From positions 1-64,000 of the forward strand of contig SUWU01000008.1 in the NCBI GenBank assembly GCA_015061295.1: a stretch of 64,000 nt of DNA. Reading direction: 5' to 3'. The notes beneath the pieces are model-generated. The model saw nothing but the letters and a program-made list of their open reading frames with translations, searched no databases and had not been told where the DNA came from. The position numbers and the translations under genes are program-made. This DNA is from Lentimicrobiaceae bacterium. GTDB lineage: Bacteria > Bacteroidota > Bacteroidia > Bacteroidales > F082. Below, one piece after another: positions 49,516-58,609 of this stretch (position 1 is the first letter of the stretch; each line of letters opens with the position of its first letter).

Positions 49516-51628
49516 TCCTAAAACTGATGTCCTCCGTAGAGTATATGGTCTGTATGTCTTGATTGTGATATTTGCATTGGCGATAATAGCGAATATCTTG
49601 ATAATCCAGATTAGAGATAAAGAGGAACTCGAGGAATACGCTGAGAAGAATGAGCTGAAAGTGAGGGAAGAGACTGCGTTTAGAGGTAATGTATTTTCTA
49701 ATGACGGCTCTCTCTTGGCTACTTCGGTGCCTGTTTATAACATACGCTTCGATGCTACGGCTCCTAATGAGGAACTGTTTAATAATAATGTGAAGGCGTT
49801 GGCTGATAGCCTTAGTCGTATCTTCAAGGATAAGTCGAAGAAAAACTATGAGAAGATGTTGCGTAAGGCGAGGGATAATAAACAGAAATATGTTAAAATC
49901 GCCAACAAAGTCTCGATGGGTGATTTGAAGAGATTGAAGACGTTCCCTATCTTTAAGGAAGGACAATATAAAGGTGGTATTATTGCGGAGAAAAGCTACG
50001 CCCGGAAGTTGCCTTATGGTAAGTTGGCAGCGAGGACGATAGGTTATGTGAGAGAGAGTGCTGATGTATATGTCGGTCTTGAAGGTGCTTTTAATGAAAG
50101 TCTTAAAGGTAAGCATGGACGACAGATGGTGAGGAAACTCAGCGGTGGTTATTGGATGCCAATACCTTCATCGGAGAATGTGGAGCCTAAGAATGGCGAC
50201 GATATATATACATCGATAGATATAGATATTCAAGATGTGGCTGAAAGCGCTTTGGAAAAGTGCCTGATAGATAATGATGCTTTGCAAGGTTGTGTCGTGT
50301 TGATGGATGTGAAGTCGGGATTTGTAGAAGTGATGGCGTCGCTGAGTTATAATGAGAAATCATCTGAATATGAGGAAGAATACAACTTCGCTCTGCGTCA
50401 TAATGTGGAACCTGGTTCTACATTCAAGGCTCTGACGATGATAACACTCATGGAAAATGATCCTAACTTCAACGTAGATGGAAAGCTACACCTTGGTAAG
50501 ACAGATATGAAGAAATTTTACGGACGACAGATGCGTGACTCTCATATCGTTACTGATGATAATGGATATACTACAATACGTAATGCCTTCGAACAGTCGT
50601 CGAATATAGCTTTTGCTACCTTGGTGGATGAGACGTTTAAAAATAATCCTGATAGATTTATAGAACTTATTTATCAGACTAAGATACATGAGCCTTTAAA
50701 TCTTGATATCAAAGGTGAGGCAAAGCCTGACATTAAAACGACTAAAGATAAGAGATGGTCGAAGCTGTCGCTTCCGTGGATGTCGATTGGTTATGAGGTG
50801 CTTCTTACTCCGATTCAAATCCTTACCTTGTATAATGCTATCGCCAACGATGGTGTGATGGTGAAACCTCAGTTTGTGAAAGAGATACGTCATGGTAATG
50901 AGGTGAAACAGGTATTTGATACCATAGTCATCAATGAGCGTATAGCATCGGCAGAGACAATATCAACTTTGAAATCCTTGCTCGAAGGCGTGGTGAAAAA
51001 TGGTACAGCAAAAGCTCTTAACAAACTCGGCTTCTCTGTGGCAGGAAAGACAGGAACAGCTCAGATATCACAAGGTAAGGCTGGTTATAATAAGAAGAAT
51101 TATACTGCCACTTTCGTGGGATATTTCCCTGCCGACAACCCGAAGTATTCATGTATTATAGTGGTGAGTAACCCTCGCGGCGGAAGGTATTACGGTAGCT
51201 CGGTGTCGGCTCCTGTGTTTAAAGAGATAGCAGAGAGAGTATATGCTACTAAACTGTGCTTCGATGAGGAACAGAGAGAATATCAATATGATGACAGTAC
51301 CTTTACAAAGGCGTCGATGGTATATTATGATGATTTCGTGAGCTACTGTAACGAGAACGATAGATCGTTTGTTAGCAACGCTAAAAATGAAGAATGGGTA
51401 AAGGTGTCGATAGTTAATAATGAGACGGTGCTGAATGATGTCGCCATCGAAGAGGGTGTGGTGCCAGATGTTAAAGGGATGAATGTTACAGATGCTGTCT
51501 CACTGTTGGAGACGATGGGTTGGGATGTGGATTTCAATGGATTTGGAAAGGTGAAGTCGCAGTCGGTACAAGCAGGAACAGAACTAACCAAAGGAAAGAC
51601 AATAAGATTAACACTGAGTAGAAAATGA
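49508..51628 (+). CDS. ftsI: Septal penicillin-binding protein (transpeptidase) with PASTA domain
   Basis: 706 residues from ATG 49508. That start follows GGAGAAAGGAGGTGG, one of the few good Shine-Dalgarno sites here; the TTG at 49487 lies before it. One N-terminal helix (LYVLIVIFALAIIANIL), a PBP dimer region, then the transpeptidase domain: SxxK as EPGSTFKAL, SxN as SSNIA, and KTG as AGKTGTAQ. A C-terminal PASTA domain (VPDVKGMNVTDAVSLLETMG) ends the protein, usual for Bacteroidota. It cross-links septal peptidoglycan together with FtsW. Confidence 0.95.
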   Translation: MIDPKTDVLRRVYGLYVLIVIFALAIIANILIIQIRDKEELEEYAEKNELKVREETAFRGNVFSNDGSLLATSVPVYNIRFDATAPNEELFNNNVKALADSLSRIFKDKSKKNYEKMLRKARDNKQKYVKIANKVSMGDLKRLKTFPIFKEGQYKGGIIAEKSYARKLPYGKLAARTIGYVRESADVYVGLEGAFNESLKGKHGRQMVRKLSGGYWMPIPSSENVEPKNGDDIYTSIDIDIQDVAESALEKCLIDNDALQGCVVLMDVKSGFVEVMASLSYNEKSSEYEEEYNFALRHNVEPGSTFKALTMITLMENDPNFNVDGKLHLGKTDMKKFYGRQMRDSHIVTDDNGYTTIRNAFEQSSNIAFATLVDETFKNNPDRFIELIYQTKIHEPLNLDIKGEAKPDIKTTKDKRWSKLSLPWMSIGYEVLLTPIQILTLYNAIANDGVMVKPQFVKEIRHGNEVKQVFDTIVINERIASAETISTLKSLLEGVVKNGTAKALNKLGFSVAGKTGTAQISQGKAGYNKKNYTATFVGYFPADNPKYSCIIVVSNPRGGRYYGSSVSAPVFKEIAERVYATKLCFDEEQREYQYDDSTFTKASMVYYDDFVSYCNENDRSFVSNAKNEEWVKVSIVNNETVLNDVAIEEGVVPDVKGMNVTDAVSLLETMGWDVDFNGFGKVKSQSVQAGTELTKGKTIRLTLSRK

Positions 51629-53082
51629 AGAAGATAAACGATATATTAAGGAATTGTGTCGTCACTGAAGTGGTTGGTGACAACGATAGATGTGTCTCTG
51701 CCTTGACTTTCGATTCGAGAAAGTGTGCCGACAATGTGGCGTTCTTCGCGTTGAGAGGTACGCAAGTAGATGGCCATGATTTTATCGATAAGGCTGTCGG
51801 ACTTGGAGCTAAGGTGGTGGTGTGTGAAAAGACACCAGATGTTATAAATGATGATGTCACATATTATGTCGTGGAAGATAGTGCTAAAGCCTTGGGTTAT
51901 GCTGCCTCAGAGTTTTATGATAGACCCTCGGAGAAACTACATCTTGTTGGTGTGACGGGTACTAATGGTAAGACAACGATAGCCACTCTGTTGTATCGTC
52001 TCTTCTTTAATGCAGGTTATCCATGCGGACTGCTGTCAACGATAGAGAATAGAGTTAATAACTTGGTGGTGCCTTCTACCCATACCACAGGCGATCAGTT
52101 GCAAATAAACGAGATGCTGAGTAAGATGGTTGATGCTGGTTGTGAATATGCCTTTATGGAAGTTAGTTCTCATGCAGTGGCACAAGATCGTATCGCAGGA
52201 TTACATTTTGCAGGTGGTATTTTTACTAATTTAACACACGACCATCTCGACTATCACAAGACTGTAGCGGCATATCGCGATGCAAAAAAGAAATTCTTCG
52301 ACAACCTTCCGGCTTCAGCATTCGCTCTCACTAATATCGATGATAGAAATGGAATGATGATGCTTCAAAATACTAAGGCAGCCAAGAAGACATATTCTCT
52401 ACGTACCGATGCCGACTTTAAAGGCGTGGTGTTAGAGAGTTACTTCGATGGCATGGAGTTGAAGATAAATAGAAATAACGTATCGACATTCTTAGTTGGA
52501 AAGTTTAACGTAAGTAACCTTCTCGCTATCTATGGAGCAGCCTCGCTCTTGGGAATGTCTGATGATGATCTGTTGAAGGAGATAAGTAATCTGCATAGCG
52601 CACCAGGACGTTTTCAGATGGTACATTCTAATTCTGGTATCGTCGGTATCGTGGATTATGCTCATACTCCTGATGCCTTGAAGAATGTCCTTGACACTAT
52701 CAATGAGATAAGAACTCATAATGAGACTCTCATAACAGTGGTGGGCGCTGGTGGTAACAGAGATGCTGCTAAGAGACCTGAGATGGCAGCAGTGGCAGTG
52801 TCGAAAAGTGATAGACTTATACTTACAAGCGATAATCCGCGTAACGAAGAACCAGAAGAGATAATAAGACAGATGAGAGAAGGCGTGGGTGGAGAGTATT
52901 ATAGCAGAGTGCTGAGTATAACAGATAGAAGAGAGGCGATAAGAACGGCAGTGGCACTCGCTAAGAAAGGTGATATTATCCTTGTGGCAGGAAAAGGTCA
53001 TGAAGATTATCAGGAGATAAGAGGAGTGAAATATCATTTTGATGATGTTGAAGAACTGACAAAAGCATTGAATGAGAAATAA
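51625..53082 (+). CDS. murE: UDP-MurNAc-tripeptide synthetase (meso-DAP adding)
   Basis: 485 residues. The N-terminal domain binds the nucleotide, the central domain has the P-loop GVTGTNGKTTI, MEVSSHAVAQDR and HDHLDYHKT, and the C-terminal domain has SDNPRNEEP, the signature for meso-diaminopimelate as substrate (Lys enzymes have a different motif). It overlaps ftsI by 4 bases (ATGA). It ends with GKGHEDYQ, which is normal. Confidence 0.96.
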   Translation: MKKINDILRNCVVTEVVGDNDRCVSALTFDSRKCADNVAFFALRGTQVDGHDFIDKAVGLGAKVVVCEKTPDVINDDVTYYVVEDSAKALGYAASEFYDRPSEKLHLVGVTGTNGKTTIATLLYRLFFNAGYPCGLLSTIENRVNNLVVPSTHTTGDQLQINEMLSKMVDAGCEYAFMEVSSHAVAQDRIAGLHFAGGIFTNLTHDHLDYHKTVAAYRDAKKKFFDNLPASAFALTNIDDRNGMMMLQNTKAAKKTYSLRTDADFKGVVLESYFDGMELKINRNNVSTFLVGKFNVSNLLAIYGAASLLGMSDDDLLKEISNLHSAPGRFQMVHSNSGIVGIVDYAHTPDALKNVLDTINEIRTHNETLITVVGAGGNRDAAKRPEMAAVAVSKSDRLILTSDNPRNEEPEEIIRQMREGVGGEYYSRVLSITDRREAIRTAVALAKKGDIILVAGKGHEDYQEIRGVKYHFDDVEELTKALNEK

Positions 53083-53098
53083 ATAAAAAATAATAACG

Positions 53099-54379
53099 AT
53101 GTTGTACTATTTATTTGAATATCTTGATAACTGTTGTGATGTGCCTGGCGCTGGTATGTTTACATACGTCAGTTTTAGGGCTATTTTCGCTATTATTGTA
53201 TCGTTGATAGTGTCGATATGGTTTGGTAAGCTCTTTATCAGGATGTTGAAGAGACGTAATATCTCAGAGACACAACGCGACGAAAGTATCGACCCATTTA
53301 ACACACAGAAAAAAGGCGTGCCGACGATGGGCGGCATCATAATAATAGTGTCGATACTCGTACCTTGTCTCCTCATCGGTAAACTGAAAAATACTTATAT
53401 GATACTGATGATAGTCACTACTGTAATACTCGGTGTTATAGGTTTTGCTGATGATTATATCAAGACGTTTAAGAAGAATAAAGAAGGCTTGAAGGGATGG
53501 TATAAGGTGTTTGGACAAGTGCTGCTAGGACTTATCGTTGGCTTGACGCTGCGTTTTAGTCCAGAAGTGGTGATGAATGAGAGAGTTGATATAAAGATAG
53601 AAGATAACAAGGAGGTTGTTGTCAAGACTCCTGACGTGAAATCGACGAGGACGACAATACCATTCTTTAAAAACAATAACCTGAATTACGCTGATATTTT
53701 TAACTTCCTTGGGGAACCTTATAAATATTGGGCAGGCTGGATCTTCTTCGTGATAGTCACTGTCTTTGTTGTGACAGCAGTGTCTAATGGCTCTAACCTC
53801 AACGATGGTATGGACGGCATGGCAGCAGGTAATTCGTCTATCATGGGGGTGGCTATAGGAATATTAGCTTATGTGTCGAGTAATGCAGTGATGGCTGATT
53901 ATCTCAATATTATGTTTATACCAGGAAGTGAAGAGGTCGTTGTGTTTATGTGTGCTTTCGTAGGAGCTTTGATAGGATTCCTATGGTATAACTCATATCC
54001 GGCGCAGATCTTCATGGGCGACACGGGAAGCCTCACCATAGGCGGCATCATAGCAGTGTCGGCTGTGATAATACATAAAGAACTGCTGCTGCCTGTGATA
54101 TGCGGAGTGTTCTTGTGGGAGAGTGTCTCTGTGATATTACAACGTTTCTATTATAAAATGGGAAAGAGAAAAGGTGTTAAACAACGTCTGTGGAAAAGAA
54201 CCCCGATACATGACCATTATAGAACATCGTTGTCGCAGGTACAGGAAAACTCACCGGGATGTAAGGTTATGTTCAAAGGCTCTTCTCAGCTTTATCATGA
54301 AACGAAGATAACATTCCGCTTCTGGATCGTGAGTATCATGCTCGCAGCAATAGCAATATTGACATTGAAGATTAGATGA
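53099..54379 (+). CDS. mraY: Phospho-MurNAc-pentapeptide translocase
   Basis: 426 residues, about ten membrane helices. It transfers phospho-MurNAc-pentapeptide onto undecaprenyl phosphate to give lipid I. Motifs: KKGVPTMGGIII, IGFADDYIK (the DDxxK motif), SNGSNLNDGMDGMAAG, FMGDTGSLTIGG, and RTPIHDHYR with the catalytic-site His residues. A segment of about 60 residues between helices (NERVDIKIEDNKEVVVKTPD) is typical in Bacteroidota. The gene ends 38 bases before the MurD fragment. Confidence 0.96.
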   Translation: MLYYLFEYLDNCCDVPGAGMFTYVSFRAIFAIIVSLIVSIWFGKLFIRMLKRRNISETQRDESIDPFNTQKKGVPTMGGIIIIVSILVPCLLIGKLKNTYMILMIVTTVILGVIGFADDYIKTFKKNKEGLKGWYKVFGQVLLGLIVGLTLRFSPEVVMNERVDIKIEDNKEVVVKTPDVKSTRTTIPFFKNNNLNYADIFNFLGEPYKYWAGWIFFVIVTVFVVTAVSNGSNLNDGMDGMAAGNSSIMGVAIGILAYVSSNAVMADYLNIMFIPGSEEVVVFMCAFVGALIGFLWYNSYPAQIFMGDTGSLTIGGIIAVSAVIIHKELLLPVICGVFLWESVSVILQRFYYKMGKRKGVKQRLWKRTPIHDHYRTSLSQVQENSPGCKVMFKGSSQLYHETKITFRFWIVSIMLAAIAILTLKIR

Positions 54380-54415
54380 TAAATATTTATAAATTATACG
54401 TTGAAAATTAGATTA
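54362..54415. repeat. 18-bp direct repeat around the murD truncation
   Basis: acattgaagattagatga (54362-54379, the end of mraY) and acgttgaaaattagatta (54398-54415, just before the MurD fragment) match at 15 of 18 bases. It may mark a past deletion or duplication. Confidence 0.5.
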
Positions 54416-54417
54416 TT

Positions 54418-54966
54418 ATGACATTAGAACAATTGGCAAGACAGGGTAGAAGACAAGCATCGATGACGACAGCTATGACAGTCACATCTATGATGCATCA
54501 GATTAGAAAGGAGAGTATCAAACAGGCGTTCTCCGACTTCGAGAATGTGAGATATAGATATGAACTCGTTAATGTCATAGGAGGAGTGTCGTATTACGAC
54601 GACTCTGCCGCACGCTCCAACGAGGCTACCTGGTTCTCTTTCAATAACCTCGGAGAAAATGTTATCTGGATTACTTATGCCGATAACATCGACTGTGATG
54701 AGCTTATACCTCAGGTGAAGAAATATGTCAAAGCAGTGATATGTCTCGGTAATAGAAAAGAAAGATTTCATTCGGTATATGATAACATACTGAAAGATAA
54801 TATCGTCGATTGCGATAATATAGACGACGCGGTGAGGAAAGCTTCTAAGATGGCTGTCGATGGCGATAGCGTGATGTTCTCTCCTGCTTGTAATGTGAAC
54901 GATGGATTTGTATGTTTCAACGAAAGAGGAGATTACTTTAAACAATGTGTTAAATCTTTGATGTAA
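54418..54966 (+). CDS. Stand-alone C-terminal MurD domain, probably not an active ligase
   Basis: 182 residues at the place of murD. It matches only the last third of MurD: IRKESIKQAFSDFENVRYRYELV, YYDDSAARSNEATW, then DGDSVMFSPACNVNDGFVCF and ERGDYFKQ. MurD normally has about 440-450 residues; the N-terminal UDP-MurNAc-Ala domain and the P-loop domain are absent, and only 38 bases of noncoding DNA separate it from mraY. Within what remains, the Lys of NDSKATN is Ala64 and the Ser of SPACAS is Val160, both known D-Glu/phosphate-site residues; Arg47 and Phe167 remain. The frame has no stops, so the protein is probably made. A full murD must be elsewhere. Confidence 0.85.
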   Translation: MTLEQLARQGRRQASMTTAMTVTSMMHQIRKESIKQAFSDFENVRYRYELVNVIGGVSYYDDSAARSNEATWFSFNNLGENVIWITYADNIDCDELIPQVKKYVKAVICLGNRKERFHSVYDNILKDNIVDCDNIDDAVRKASKMAVDGDSVMFSPACNVNDGFVCFNERGDYFKQCVKSLM

Positions 54967-54970
54967 TCAT

Positions 54971-56167
54971 ATGAAGACTTTTAATAAGATATTTCAAGGC
55001 GATAGAGTCATATGGATAGTGGTGGCATTCCTCTCGTTAATGTCGCTTCTCGCTGTATATAGTGCGACAGGTACTTTGGCTCAGACACGTCATGATGGAA
55101 ACAATACTTTCGTACTTCTGAGTCATGCTGCTACATTGGCTGTTGGACTTGTGGCTATGTATGTGGCACATCGCGTGAAATATACTTATTATTCTGTCTT
55201 GTTGAGATTGGCATTCTTCGTGTCGGTGCCTCTCTTGGCATATACTACGTTTAAAGGAGTGGATCTTAACAATGCGCAACGTGTCGTTGAGATCTTCGGA
55301 GTGTCATTCCAGTCGAGCGACTTGGCTAAGGTGGCTCTGATAGGCTACCTGGCACGTATGCTGACGATAAAACAAGATGAGATCAAAGACTTTAAAAATG
55401 CCTTCGTGCCACTGATGCTTCCTGTCTTGCTGATAGTGGGACTCATACTTCCAGAAAACTTATCTACCGCAGCAATATTATTCGTATGTAGTATAGCACT
55501 TCTCTTTGTAGGTAGAATCAACTTGAAATATCTAGCCATGTTTATGTTGATAGGTATATTTGCGTTGACGTTATATATTGTTATAGTGATGAATGTGGCG
55601 GAAGATACTGGTAGAACACATACGTGGATTAATCGTATAGAACGTTTTATAAGTCCTTCAGAAGAAGAGTTGGAAGAAGGCATCGTCATCACCGACGAGA
55701 ACTATCAGACGATGCACGCCAAGATTGCTGTAGCCAGCGGAGGTATCTTCGGTAAAGCTCCAGGGAGAAGCACCCAACGTAATCTGTTGCCTCACCCTTA
55801 CTCTGACTTTATCTTCGCGATAATAGTGGAAGAATATGGATTGGCAGGAGGCGTCTTCGTGATAATGATGTATCTGATATTGTTGTATAGAGCTATAGCT
55901 ATCATGGTGGCGATACCACAGTCGTTTGGTGGCTTCCTGTCGTTTGGATTGGCGTTTCTCCTCGTGATGCAGGCGATGATAAATATGGGTGTAGCGGTGG
56001 GACTGCTGCCTGTCACAGGACAGCCTCTGCCTTTGGTGAGTAAGGGCGGAACATCGATGTTGTTTACAGGAATTTCCATAGGGATAATATTAAGTGTGTC
56101 GAAAGAAGTTAACAAGATAAAAGAAAAAAGAGATGAACTCAAACCTGCAACCGAGAGTGATAGTTAG
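54971..56167 (+). CDS. ftsW: Septal peptidoglycan glycosyltransferase FtsW
   Basis: 398 residues, about ten membrane helices of the SEDS family. It polymerises lipid II into glycan strands at the septum with FtsI. Motifs: GVDLNNAQRVVEIFGVSFQSS (around the catalytic Arg-Asp region), the long periplasmic loop with KIAVASGGIFGKAPGRST, and the C-terminal GVAVGLLPVTGQPLPLVSKGGT. It starts 4 bases after the MurD fragment and overlaps murG by 35 bases. Confidence 0.95.
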   Translation: MKTFNKIFQGDRVIWIVVAFLSLMSLLAVYSATGTLAQTRHDGNNTFVLLSHAATLAVGLVAMYVAHRVKYTYYSVLLRLAFFVSVPLLAYTTFKGVDLNNAQRVVEIFGVSFQSSDLAKVALIGYLARMLTIKQDEIKDFKNAFVPLMLPVLLIVGLILPENLSTAAILFVCSIALLFVGRINLKYLAMFMLIGIFALTLYIVIVMNVAEDTGRTHTWINRIERFISPSEEELEEGIVITDENYQTMHAKIAVASGGIFGKAPGRSTQRNLLPHPYSDFIFAIIVEEYGLAGGVFVIMMYLILLYRAIAIMVAIPQSFGGFLSFGLAFLLVMQAMINMGVAVGLLPVTGQPLPLVSKGGTSMLFTGISIGIILSVSKEVNKIKEKRDELKPATESDS

Positions 56168-57251
56168 TGGCGGTGGAACAGGAGGTCATATCTTTCCTGC
56201 CATAGCTATAGCTGATGCCCTGAAGAAACGTTTTCCTCAGGCTGAGATTTTATTTGTTGGAGCCAAAGATCGTATGGAGATGGATAGGGTGCCTAAGGCT
56301 GGCTATCCAATAGAAGGACTGTGGATTAGTGGTTTTAAAAGAGAACTGTCGTTAGATAACCTCAGCTTCCCTTTTAAACTCATAAGCAGTATGTGTAAGG
56401 CAAGGAAGATATTGAAACGCTTCAAACCTGATGTGGTGATAGGTGTAGGTGGATTTGCTAGTGGACCAACAATGAAGATGGCTGCTTCGATGGGAATACC
56501 TATCGTGATACAAGAACAGAACTCTTTTCCAGGCGTGACGAATAAGATGGTGGCAAAGAAAGCCGCTAAGATATGTGTGGCATATAATAATATGGATAAG
56601 TGGTTTCCTAATGATAGGATAGTGTTGACAGGAAATCCTTTGAGAAATAATATAAAACCATTGGATGGTAAAAGAGATGAGAGTGTAGCGTTCTTTGGTC
56701 TTGACCCTAATAAAAAAGTGATACTGCTCGTGGGTGGAAGTCAAGGCGCTCTCGGAATCAACAAAGGTATATCAGCTCAGCTGAAGTCGTTCAACGATAA
56801 CGATTATCAGATGATATGGCAGACAGGAAAGTTCTATTATGATAAGGCAATGCAGGAGGTTAAAGATAACGACCTCCAAGATAGGATAAAATGTACAGTG
56901 TTCATCGATAGGATGGATCTCGCCTATGCTGCTGCTGATGTGGTGATATCACGTGCAGGAGCTATGTCTATCTCTGAGCTGTCGTTGCTTAATAAGGCTG
57001 TGGTGTTCGTGCCACTACCGACGGCGGCAGAAGACCATCAGACGAAAAATGCAATGAGTCTCGTTGATGCTGAGGCTGCTATGATAGTGAGAAATGATGA
57101 GACAGAAACGAGACTGCTTCCAACAGTGTTCAACTTGTTGACAGATGATGAGAAACAAAATAAGATGAGAGATAATATAGTGGCTTTTGCTAAACCCAAT
57201 GCGGCGGAAGATATTGTGGATCAGATAGAGTTAATCTTGAATAAAAAATAA
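56133..57251 (+). CDS. murG: Lipid II synthase MurG
   Basis: 372 residues. Adds GlcNAc from UDP-GlcNAc to lipid I at the inner face of the membrane. The Gly-rich loop VSGGGTGGHIFPAIAIA, the second IGVGGFASGPTMKMA, VIQEQNSFPGVTNK and the donor site LVGGSQGALGINKG and PLPTAAEDHQTKNA are present. The start overlaps the end of ftsW. An ATG at 56133 gives a short N-terminus of seven residues before VIVSGG, which is normal. Confidence 0.96.
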   Translation: MNSNLQPRVIVSGGGTGGHIFPAIAIADALKKRFPQAEILFVGAKDRMEMDRVPKAGYPIEGLWISGFKRELSLDNLSFPFKLISSMCKARKILKRFKPDVVIGVGGFASGPTMKMAASMGIPIVIQEQNSFPGVTNKMVAKKAAKICVAYNNMDKWFPNDRIVLTGNPLRNNIKPLDGKRDESVAFFGLDPNKKVILLVGGSQGALGINKGISAQLKSFNDNDYQMIWQTGKFYYDKAMQEVKDNDLQDRIKCTVFIDRMDLAYAAADVVISRAGAMSISELSLLNKAVVFVPLPTAAEDHQTKNAMSLVDAEAAMIVRNDETETRLLPTVFNLLTDDEKQNKMRDNIVAFAKPNAAEDIVDQIELILNKK

Positions 57252-57262
57252 ACTGATAAAAG

Positions 57263-58609
57263 ATGAATGGTTTTGTCGATAATATTTATTTCTTAGGAAT
57301 CGGTGGTATTGGAATGAGTGCCCTCGCTCGTTATTATCATCGTAAAGGTAATAAGGTGTCGGGTTATGACAAGACGCCATCGCCATTGACGAAGAGGTTG
57401 GAAGAAGAAGGCATAGCTATTCATTATGAGGATAATCCAAATCTCATCCCTGATGATATTAATATGGTGATAATAACGCCAGCAATACCATCTGACTCTC
57501 TTGAACTTAATTATCTTCGCGAGAAAGGTATTAAGATGATGAAACGCTCTGAGGTCTTGGGAGAAATATCTAATCACAATAAAAGTGTAGCTGTATCGGG
57601 AACACATGGTAAGACTACGGTGACGGCTTTGATAACACATCTGTTAAGTTATTCTAAGAGAAAGATTTCGGCTTTTGTGGGCGGTATAGCAAGAAACATC
57701 GACAGCAATGTTATTATCGGTGATGAGAACGATGAGTTTGTGGTGATGGAAGCCGATGAGTTTGACCGTTCTTTTTTGCGTCTCAGTCCTTATGTCAGCG
57801 TGGTGACTTCCATCGATGCAGATCATCTCGATATTTATGGAGATACAGCGCATCTTGAAGAAGCCTTTAATCAGTTTGTGGCAAAGACATCGTCTGATGG
57901 GGTGGTGGTGTATAATGCAGCGCTTCCAATAAAGACAGCGTGTAAGTCTATCAGTTATGGCTATGAAGATGCTGATGTGATGCCTAAGAATGTCAAGATA
58001 GAAAATGAGATGACGAAGTTCGATTTGGTGACTAAGGAGGGACTTGTTCTCGGGAGCTATGAGATGAGTCTTTATGGGCGACATAATGTGATGAACGCTA
58101 TGGCTGCTATAATAGTGTCATTGCAGTTAGGTCTCGATATTAGACAGATTAAGGAAGGTCTCGCTACTTTCCTTGGCGTGCAACGTCGTTTCGACATAAG
58201 ATATAGAGATGAGAAAGTGTGTTATATCGACGATTATGCACATCATCCAGAAGAGATAAAGGCATGTCTTAAAGCAGTGCGAGAGATATATCCAAAGAGA
58301 AAGATGACTCTCGTCTTTCAGCCACATCTCTTTACAAGAACACGCGACTTTATGGACGAATTTGCAGAGGCTCTGTCGCTCGCCGATAGCCTCCTCTTGA
58401 TGGAGATATACCCGGCTCGCGAAAAACCGCTACAAGGAATAACATCATCAGAACTGCTGAAAAAAGTGACGTGTCATGAGAAACAGATATGTCAGAAAGA
58501 TGAACTCATCGATACAATAAAAGATCTTAGACCTGAACTGATAATAACAATGGGAGCTGGCGACATCGACAGATTCGTGCCTCAGATAGAATCAATGTTG
58601 AAACAATGA
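57263..58609 (+). CDS. murC: UDP-N-acetylmuramate-L-alanine ligase
   Basis: 448 residues. Adds L-Ala to UDP-MurNAc with ATP. N-terminal FLGIGGIGMSALARYY, P-loop VAVSGTHGKTTVTAL, EADEFDRSFL, SIDADHLDIYG, then the C-terminal YIDDYAHHPEEIKACL and FQPHLFTRTRDFMDEFA. All Mur ligase domains are complete, in contrast to the MurD fragment three genes upstream. It overlaps ftsQ by 4 bases. Confidence 0.96.
   Translation: MNGFVDNIYFLGIGGIGMSALARYYHRKGNKVSGYDKTPSPLTKRLEEEGIAIHYEDNPNLIPDDINMVIITPAIPSDSLELNYLREKGIKMMKRSEVLGEISNHNKSVAVSGTHGKTTVTALITHLLSYSKRKISAFVGGIARNIDSNVIIGDENDEFVVMEADEFDRSFLRLSPYVSVVTSIDADHLDIYGDTAHLEEAFNQFVAKTSSDGVVVYNAALPIKTACKSISYGYEDADVMPKNVKIENEMTKFDLVTKEGLVLGSYEMSLYGRHNVMNAMAAIIVSLQLGLDIRQIKEGLATFLGVQRRFDIRYRDEKVCYIDDYAHHPEEIKACLKAVREIYPKRKMTLVFQPHLFTRTRDFMDEFAEALSLADSLLLMEIYPAREKPLQGITSSELLKKVTCHEKQICQKDELIDTIKDLRPELIITMGAGDIDRFVPQIESMLKQ

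Follow-up and report, generated by a model that had tools for sequence, protein, structure and literature searches.

A C-terminal remnant of MurD recurs in the dcw cluster of Bacteroidales genomes with MurL relatives

MurD is a textbook essential enzyme and a drug target. In the dcw cluster of an uncultured gut bacterium of the order Bacteroidales, the place of murD is taken by a short gene that encodes the C-terminal part of the protein and is referred to here as the stub. The window is the whole stretch of DNA that was analysed, 64,000 nucleotides of contig SUWU01000008.1, and the genome to which it belongs has 2.10 Mb in 63 contigs and is 93.7% complete. The stub is not private to this genome and is recurrent in the order, where murD was truncated in parallel to the same piece. 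The piece is under purifying selection, and it co-occurs with relatives of MurL in genomes where the glutamate racemase MurI does not reach its profile cut-off. The explanation that we favour, with a probability of about 0.55, is that the window gene, although no longer catalytic, is a remnant of canonical MurD that still functions, the catalysis having moved to a MurD2-MurL pair and the module being kept for a putative protein-binding role.

The short murD gene of the window

The stub lies in a part of the dcw cluster that contains the following features.

51625..53082, + strand: murE (NF001126, 605.8 bits, above the cut-off)
53099..54379, + strand: mraY, the upstream neighbour, named by synteny and sequence reading
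54380..54417, + strand: 38-base spacer from the mraY stop to the ATG of the stub
54418..54966, + strand: murD stub of 182 aa, the last segment of the central domain and the C-terminal domain of MurD
54418..54555, + strand: stub residues 1-46, the retained central-domain segment, containing the conserved IRKESIK motif
54556..54963, + strand: stub residues 47-182, the C-terminal (glutamate-ligase) domain of MurD, block pLDDT mostly 83-95
54971..56167, + strand: ftsW, the downstream neighbour, named by synteny and sequence reading
56133..57251, + strand: murG, named by synteny and sequence reading
57263..58609, + strand: murC (TIGR01082, 412.7 bits, above the cut-off)

The profile search did not find in the window stub the three domains of MurD with a P-loop central domain; the match covered only positions 269-440 of the MurD profile and scored 109 bits against a cut-off of 212. 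Compared with full-length MurD, the UDP-binding domain and the P-loop are missing, and about 40 residues remain of the central domain. The C-terminal Mur ligase domain is present (PF02875, 30.7 bits against a cut-off of 28.4), and the predicted structure of the stub matched the C-terminal domain of MurD in a structure comparison, with residues 3-39 modelled as one helix at a block pLDDT of 52-68. The start of the stub is a Met that is internal in full-length MurD. A preliminary description of the window had placed the C-terminal domain of MurD alone at 54418-54966, between mraY and ftsW and behind a gap of 38 bases; the profile and structure matches bear this out with the addition of the central-domain residues, and the coordinates agree. 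The P-loop domain is needed for the mechanism of MurD, and no ligase activity is therefore expected without it.

The residues of the remaining substrate site were compared with E. coli MurD, numbered with Met1 included. In the window copy His268, Lys320, Thr322, Lys349 and Ser416 have each been substituted or fall in a gap, and among the contacts to D-Glu and ATP, Lys320 has become Ala, Thr322 Arg and Ser416 Val, with a gap at Lys349; the Lys to Ala and Ser to Val replacements had already been noticed in the window sequence. Arg303 and Asp318 are retained and most substrate residues are gone, the roles of the contact residues following in part PMC8788868 and PMC4816537. Over 68 stub loci of the order, mraY was found upstream in 67 and ftsW downstream in 67, both together in 66, and the exceptions (G040 and G349) are both close to contig ends.

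The glutamate pathway and the distribution of the stub

The genome of the window contains seven places with a Mur_ligase_C domain. One of them is a MurD-like protein of 427 aa on contig C40, encoded directly downstream of a MurL-like protein of 433 aa, which matched NF041275 with an E-value of 2.5e-73 over residues 18-401 and with 247 bits against the 700-bit cut-off of the Xanthomonadales equivalog. According to PMC8788868, MurD2 of Xanthomonas adds L-Glu, which MurL epimerises with ATP, and the preference for L-Glu comes from Glu in place of Asp182 and Arg in place of Lys348 (PDB numbering). Both replacements were present in the 427-aa protein, in the motifs NVFEEHLD and GGYDRG (L005:1417-2700:-), when its residues were read by eye against that source. 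The protein was classed as MurD2-like because of its neighbour and these specificity residues. Thus, the expectation in the preliminary description of a full murD elsewhere held in part: a full-length ligase of the MurD family exists (G000:C40), but it resembles MurD2 rather than canonical MurD. The murL- and murD2-like genes are immediately followed by aroB- and aroA-like genes (L015:6105-10967, the aro names by sequence reading). In addition, apparent fusions of MurL and MurD2, seen as matches that share a contig and lie in open frames equal in length (885-922 aa), occur in five genomes of family f77 (G111, G200, G274, G331, G421) and in two of the same genus as the window genome (G024, G028).

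No TIGR00067 match for MurI was obtained in the window genome at its 93.7% completeness, and MurI was not found in any of a set of 14 genomes. The MurD2-MurL pair seems, as judged from sequence, to do the chemistry of MurD in this organism. The PF08245 search for the Mur ligase middle domain matched MurE, MurF, a MurF-like/alanine-racemase-like fusion, MurC, MurD2, an Mpl-like protein and FolC, and it gave no orphan middle domain in this genome; the fusion and the Mpl-like protein were named by sequence reading and are presumably what these names say. Of the two MurF-like genes (L010 on G000:C3 and L003 on G000:C28), one is a single MurF (TIGR01143) and the other, on C3, shares one frame with an alanine-racemase-like domain.

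The stub was found in 33 of the 36 same-genus genomes searched, the window genome included, and the three misses (G002, G003, G006) are 72, 71 and 62% complete. The genus genomes without a MurL match were G002, G003, G016 and G023. The last of these, at 97% completeness, has the stub and neither a MurL nor a MurD2 match, which fits one assembly gap. For the order, a census was made of 392 genomes at least 90% complete, many of them metagenome assemblies, with a MurL call at E <= 1e-20 and a MurI call at the TIGR00067 cut-off of 146.65 bits. MurL was called in 127 and MurI in 247 of the 392. The MurI cut-off was reached by 0 of the 127 MurL-positive genomes in the table read, and none was counted as MurI-positive because the best E-value among them (4.0e-21, G294) is far from the cut-off.

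The dcw slot of the 127 MurL-positive genomes held a full MurD in 70, a stub in 53 and neither in one, and three (G055, G156, G324) were counted as unresolved. By frame alone these slots had given 67 full, 56 short and four without a match; contig ends were then read, so that the 70 include full MurDs cut by a contig end (G085, G136, G412) and the 53 include G363, whose frame reaches one. Complete loss was considered for four MurL-positive candidates and only G109 is a clear absence. The G085 frame, 315 aa long, is a MurD that the contig end interrupts; for G055 and G156 neither mraY nor murG was matched, and their assemblies therefore probably lack the dcw region. G109 has a scattered dcw cluster, with mraY followed by another gene and murG elsewhere (L307, L309), and its lack of a stub indicates that the stub is not absolutely required. 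Of the 265 MurL-negative genomes, 155 were examined, including 80 picked mainly for weak E-values and not randomly, and they gave 150 full MurDs, one stub, two short frames that contig ends probably interrupt (G178, G392) and two slots without a match (G157, G321). The single MurL-negative stub is that of G050, where MurI was not found either. Both G023 and G050, each with a stub and no MurL match, count against the link between the stub and the pathway swap.

Canonical full MurD persists in 70 of the 127 MurL-positive genomes although none of these reaches the MurI cut-off. When 42 of these 70 proteins were examined together with 14 from MurL-negative genomes, Lys116, Glu158, Asp183, His184, His268, Asn269, Arg303, Asp318, Lys320, Thr322, Lys349 and Ser416 were kept in 42/42 and 14/14, and Asn272 in 41 of the 42, so that the main catalytic residues are intact; this table leaves out G412 and G363, whose MurD-like sequence and frame, respectively, extend to a contig end. 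The pathway swap alone therefore does not make MurD dispensable.

Parallel truncation and selection on the remaining piece

Both forms of the gene, full and stub, occur side by side in families f4, f6, f13, f27, f33, f35, f49, f69, f71, f90, f110 and f113. The history of the two forms was followed on a tree of MurE, MraY, FtsW, MurG and MurC with 100 rows, 49 of them with the stub, from which G412, ten rows less than 55% filled and eight near-duplicates had been dropped and in which G363 was kept as a stub. The full/stub label needs 16 changes on this dcw tree, all 16 forced by starred branches, the stubs form 18 separate clades, and holding all stubs together was rejected with p-AU 5.2e-68. 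An earlier FastTree of 119 rows, which included the mislabelled G412, gave 17 changes with 14 forced. The tree of the C-terminal domain (164 columns) needs 13 changes, of which its starred branches force only four. In this tree the families whose stubs stand beside their full MurD are f113, f69 (two of five stubs), f110, f6, f71, f49 and f33, and those whose stubs stand apart from it are f90 (G124), f35 (G069), f69 (the other three), f13, f27 and f4; long-branch stubs of different families cluster in it. A single ancient truncation, or one stub that spread, was ruled out by two results, the AU test for the dcw tree and the nesting within seven families.

The geometry of the truncation was measured in nine stub/full pairs, eight within families and one between families (G091/G147). 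Counted from the mraY stop, the stub ATG came after 14-94 nt and its internal counterpart in the full gene after 790-821 nt. Independent truncations to the same piece, and its preservation afterwards, suggest a second, non-catalytic job.

The dN/dS ratio (Nei-Gojobori) was 0.036-0.212 in 11 of 17 stub pairs, from families f1, f6, f69, f71 and f77, and 0.034-0.081 in five full MurD pairs, a set in which some members were used in more than one pair and dS exceeded 1 in several cases. The other six stub pairs were saturated and gave no ratio, the two of the window's own stub among them (pN 0.235 and 0.249, pS 0.803 and 0.817). The finite ratios therefore make the stub a protein under purifying selection, if somewhat relaxed, and stubs evolve faster than full MurD. 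The preliminary description had offered either a slowly decaying relic or a new role, for example as a scaffold. These ratios contradict a relic, as does the fact that the same piece was retained repeatedly and in parallel; a new or second role is supported, and its form as a scaffold is what we infer. A decaying pseudogene or an assembly deletion is very improbable: it would agree with the missing catalytic residues and with the long branches of the oldest stubs, but the ratios are low and the short open frame recurs in the same-genus genomes and in 53 genomes of the census, independent genomes that rule out a deletion made in assembly.

Twenty stub representatives were chosen from the first tree, some of which the second tree joins into its 18 clades, and the conservation counts are phylogenetically weighted no further than this choice. 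Among them, His268 was kept in 1, Asn272 in 6, Lys349 in 8, Thr322 in 14 and Lys320 in 15, whereas Asp318, Phe430 and Ile343 were kept in 20, Arg303, Trp328, Trp342 and Val364 in 19 and Arg286 in 17. The Arg-Lys helix is among the features that persist while the substrate site decays, and in the retained helix residues 26, 29, 34 and 38 are hydrophobic in 94-100% of stubs. Arg286, Trp328 and Trp342 are a candidate interface of this order because they are common to the full and short forms and differ from E. coli MurD; the conserved Trp and Asp may be structural rather than part of an interface.

Possible roles of the retained module

In the mechanism that we favour, MurD catalysis would have become dispensable and net deletions of about 700-780 nt would have removed the two N-terminal domains, separately in many lineages, each leaving the C-terminal module in place and usually with an ATG inside full-length murD as its new start. 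In Thermotoga maritima, MurD, MurE and MurF are cited as binding partners of MurG, for which a scaffold role is proposed (PMC6420597). A MurD freed from ligation could remain part of such an assembly, and the retained module may be an adapter among MraY, FtsW, MurG and the Mur ligases, acting through surfaces other than the substrate site. A protein-protein role of this kind is probable for the module.

The shared start of the stubs allows a bolder proposal, which is possible but doubtful: that Bacteroidales murD is two genes in one, a ligase and a short C-terminal protein made from an internal ATG and important in its own right for cell-wall assembly. If so, MurD2-MurL replaced the ligase and only the inner gene was needed, hence the repeated trimming to Met257. 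Met occupies position 257 (E. coli numbering, Leu in E. coli itself) in 54 of the 56 full MurDs compared in the order, and a Met aligns with it in 61 of 68 stubs and is the first of the frame in 58, the stub start sites being inferred and the most diverged stubs aligning loosely near this position. The upstream start-likeness score of Met257 in full genes averaged 1.65 in MurL-positive and -0.39 in MurL-negative genomes, as compared with 3.79 for mraY and murG starts, -1.22 for Met274, which is nearly as conserved, -2.40 for other Met of MurD and -3.82 for Met inside other genes. This signal is mostly explained by the encoded amino acids. An A-rich context matters for translation starts in this phylum; the codon-controlled excess of A at Met257 had a mean z of 0.64 (s.e. 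0.18, n=40) in MurL-positive genes and was not clear in MurL-negative ones (0.22, s.e. 0.35, n=14), with standard errors that are too small because the genes are related. The pathway swap, the parallel origins and the shared internal Met all go beyond what the preliminary description could see in one sequence.

The main rival to a protein-binding remnant, though an unlikely one, is a pseudoenzyme that senses a ligand, in which the C-domain half of the nucleotide site would regulate MurD2, MurL or another Mur ligase by the level of ATP or precursor. It owes this rank to the survival of the Arg303/Asp318 pair: Asp318, which we take to have a role at the nucleotide site, is present in 68/68 stubs, Arg or Lys at position 303 in 68/68 and His302 in 56/68. 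Arg302 (PDB numbering) contacts the alpha-phosphate of ADP in closed MurD, according to PMC4816537. However, the stub lacks the half of the ATP site contributed by the central domain, His268, Asn272, Lys320 and Lys349 are lost in many stubs, and the Arg303/Asp318 pair could be structural.

In a Mur ligase the amino acid is bound by the C domain, whose fold the predicted structure of the stub retains, and the stub might supply this domain in trans to another Mur ligase. This is improbable: the Mur ligases found in the window genome, MurD2 included, have their own C domain (the exception is the MurF-like fusion on C3, without a PF02875 match), no orphan middle domain was found there, and substrate residues are missing from old stubs, that of the window among them. 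Less probable still is a cis-acting remnant, in which the DNA or its translation would be kept to couple mraY to ftsW expression. The flanking by both genes in 66/68 loci agrees with it, but purifying selection acts on the amino acids, the stubs retain the fold and particular side chains even where identity is low, and a short leader would suffice for coupling.

No earlier report of a MurD C-terminal stub was found among the papers listed in searches of the open-access literature. The repeated loss of the catalytic domains with the C-terminal module kept in place points to a non-catalytic function, which would be hidden in organisms where both parts are fused. The stubs are natural "separation-of-function" proteins, with which a structural role of Mur ligases in the precursor-making complex is directly testable.

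The arrangement resembles that of Xanthomonas, Micromonospora and Salinispora as given in the accessible part of PMC8788868, with a MurD2-like ligase beside a MurL-like epimerase and no MurI seen. Bacteroidales are absent from the MurD2-MurL taxa listed in that part, and MurL relatives occur in about one third of the sampled genomes of the order. Unlike in those taxa, the dcw cluster here still has canonical murD or what remains of its C-terminal part. In the assemblies of Mur ligases with MurG and MreB of Thermotoga and Bordetella, MurD is cited as a partner of both MurG and MreB (PMC6420597). The Mur ligases there are full-length enzymes, unlike the stub; the non-catalytic binding of MurD in those assemblies is a property that the stub could keep.
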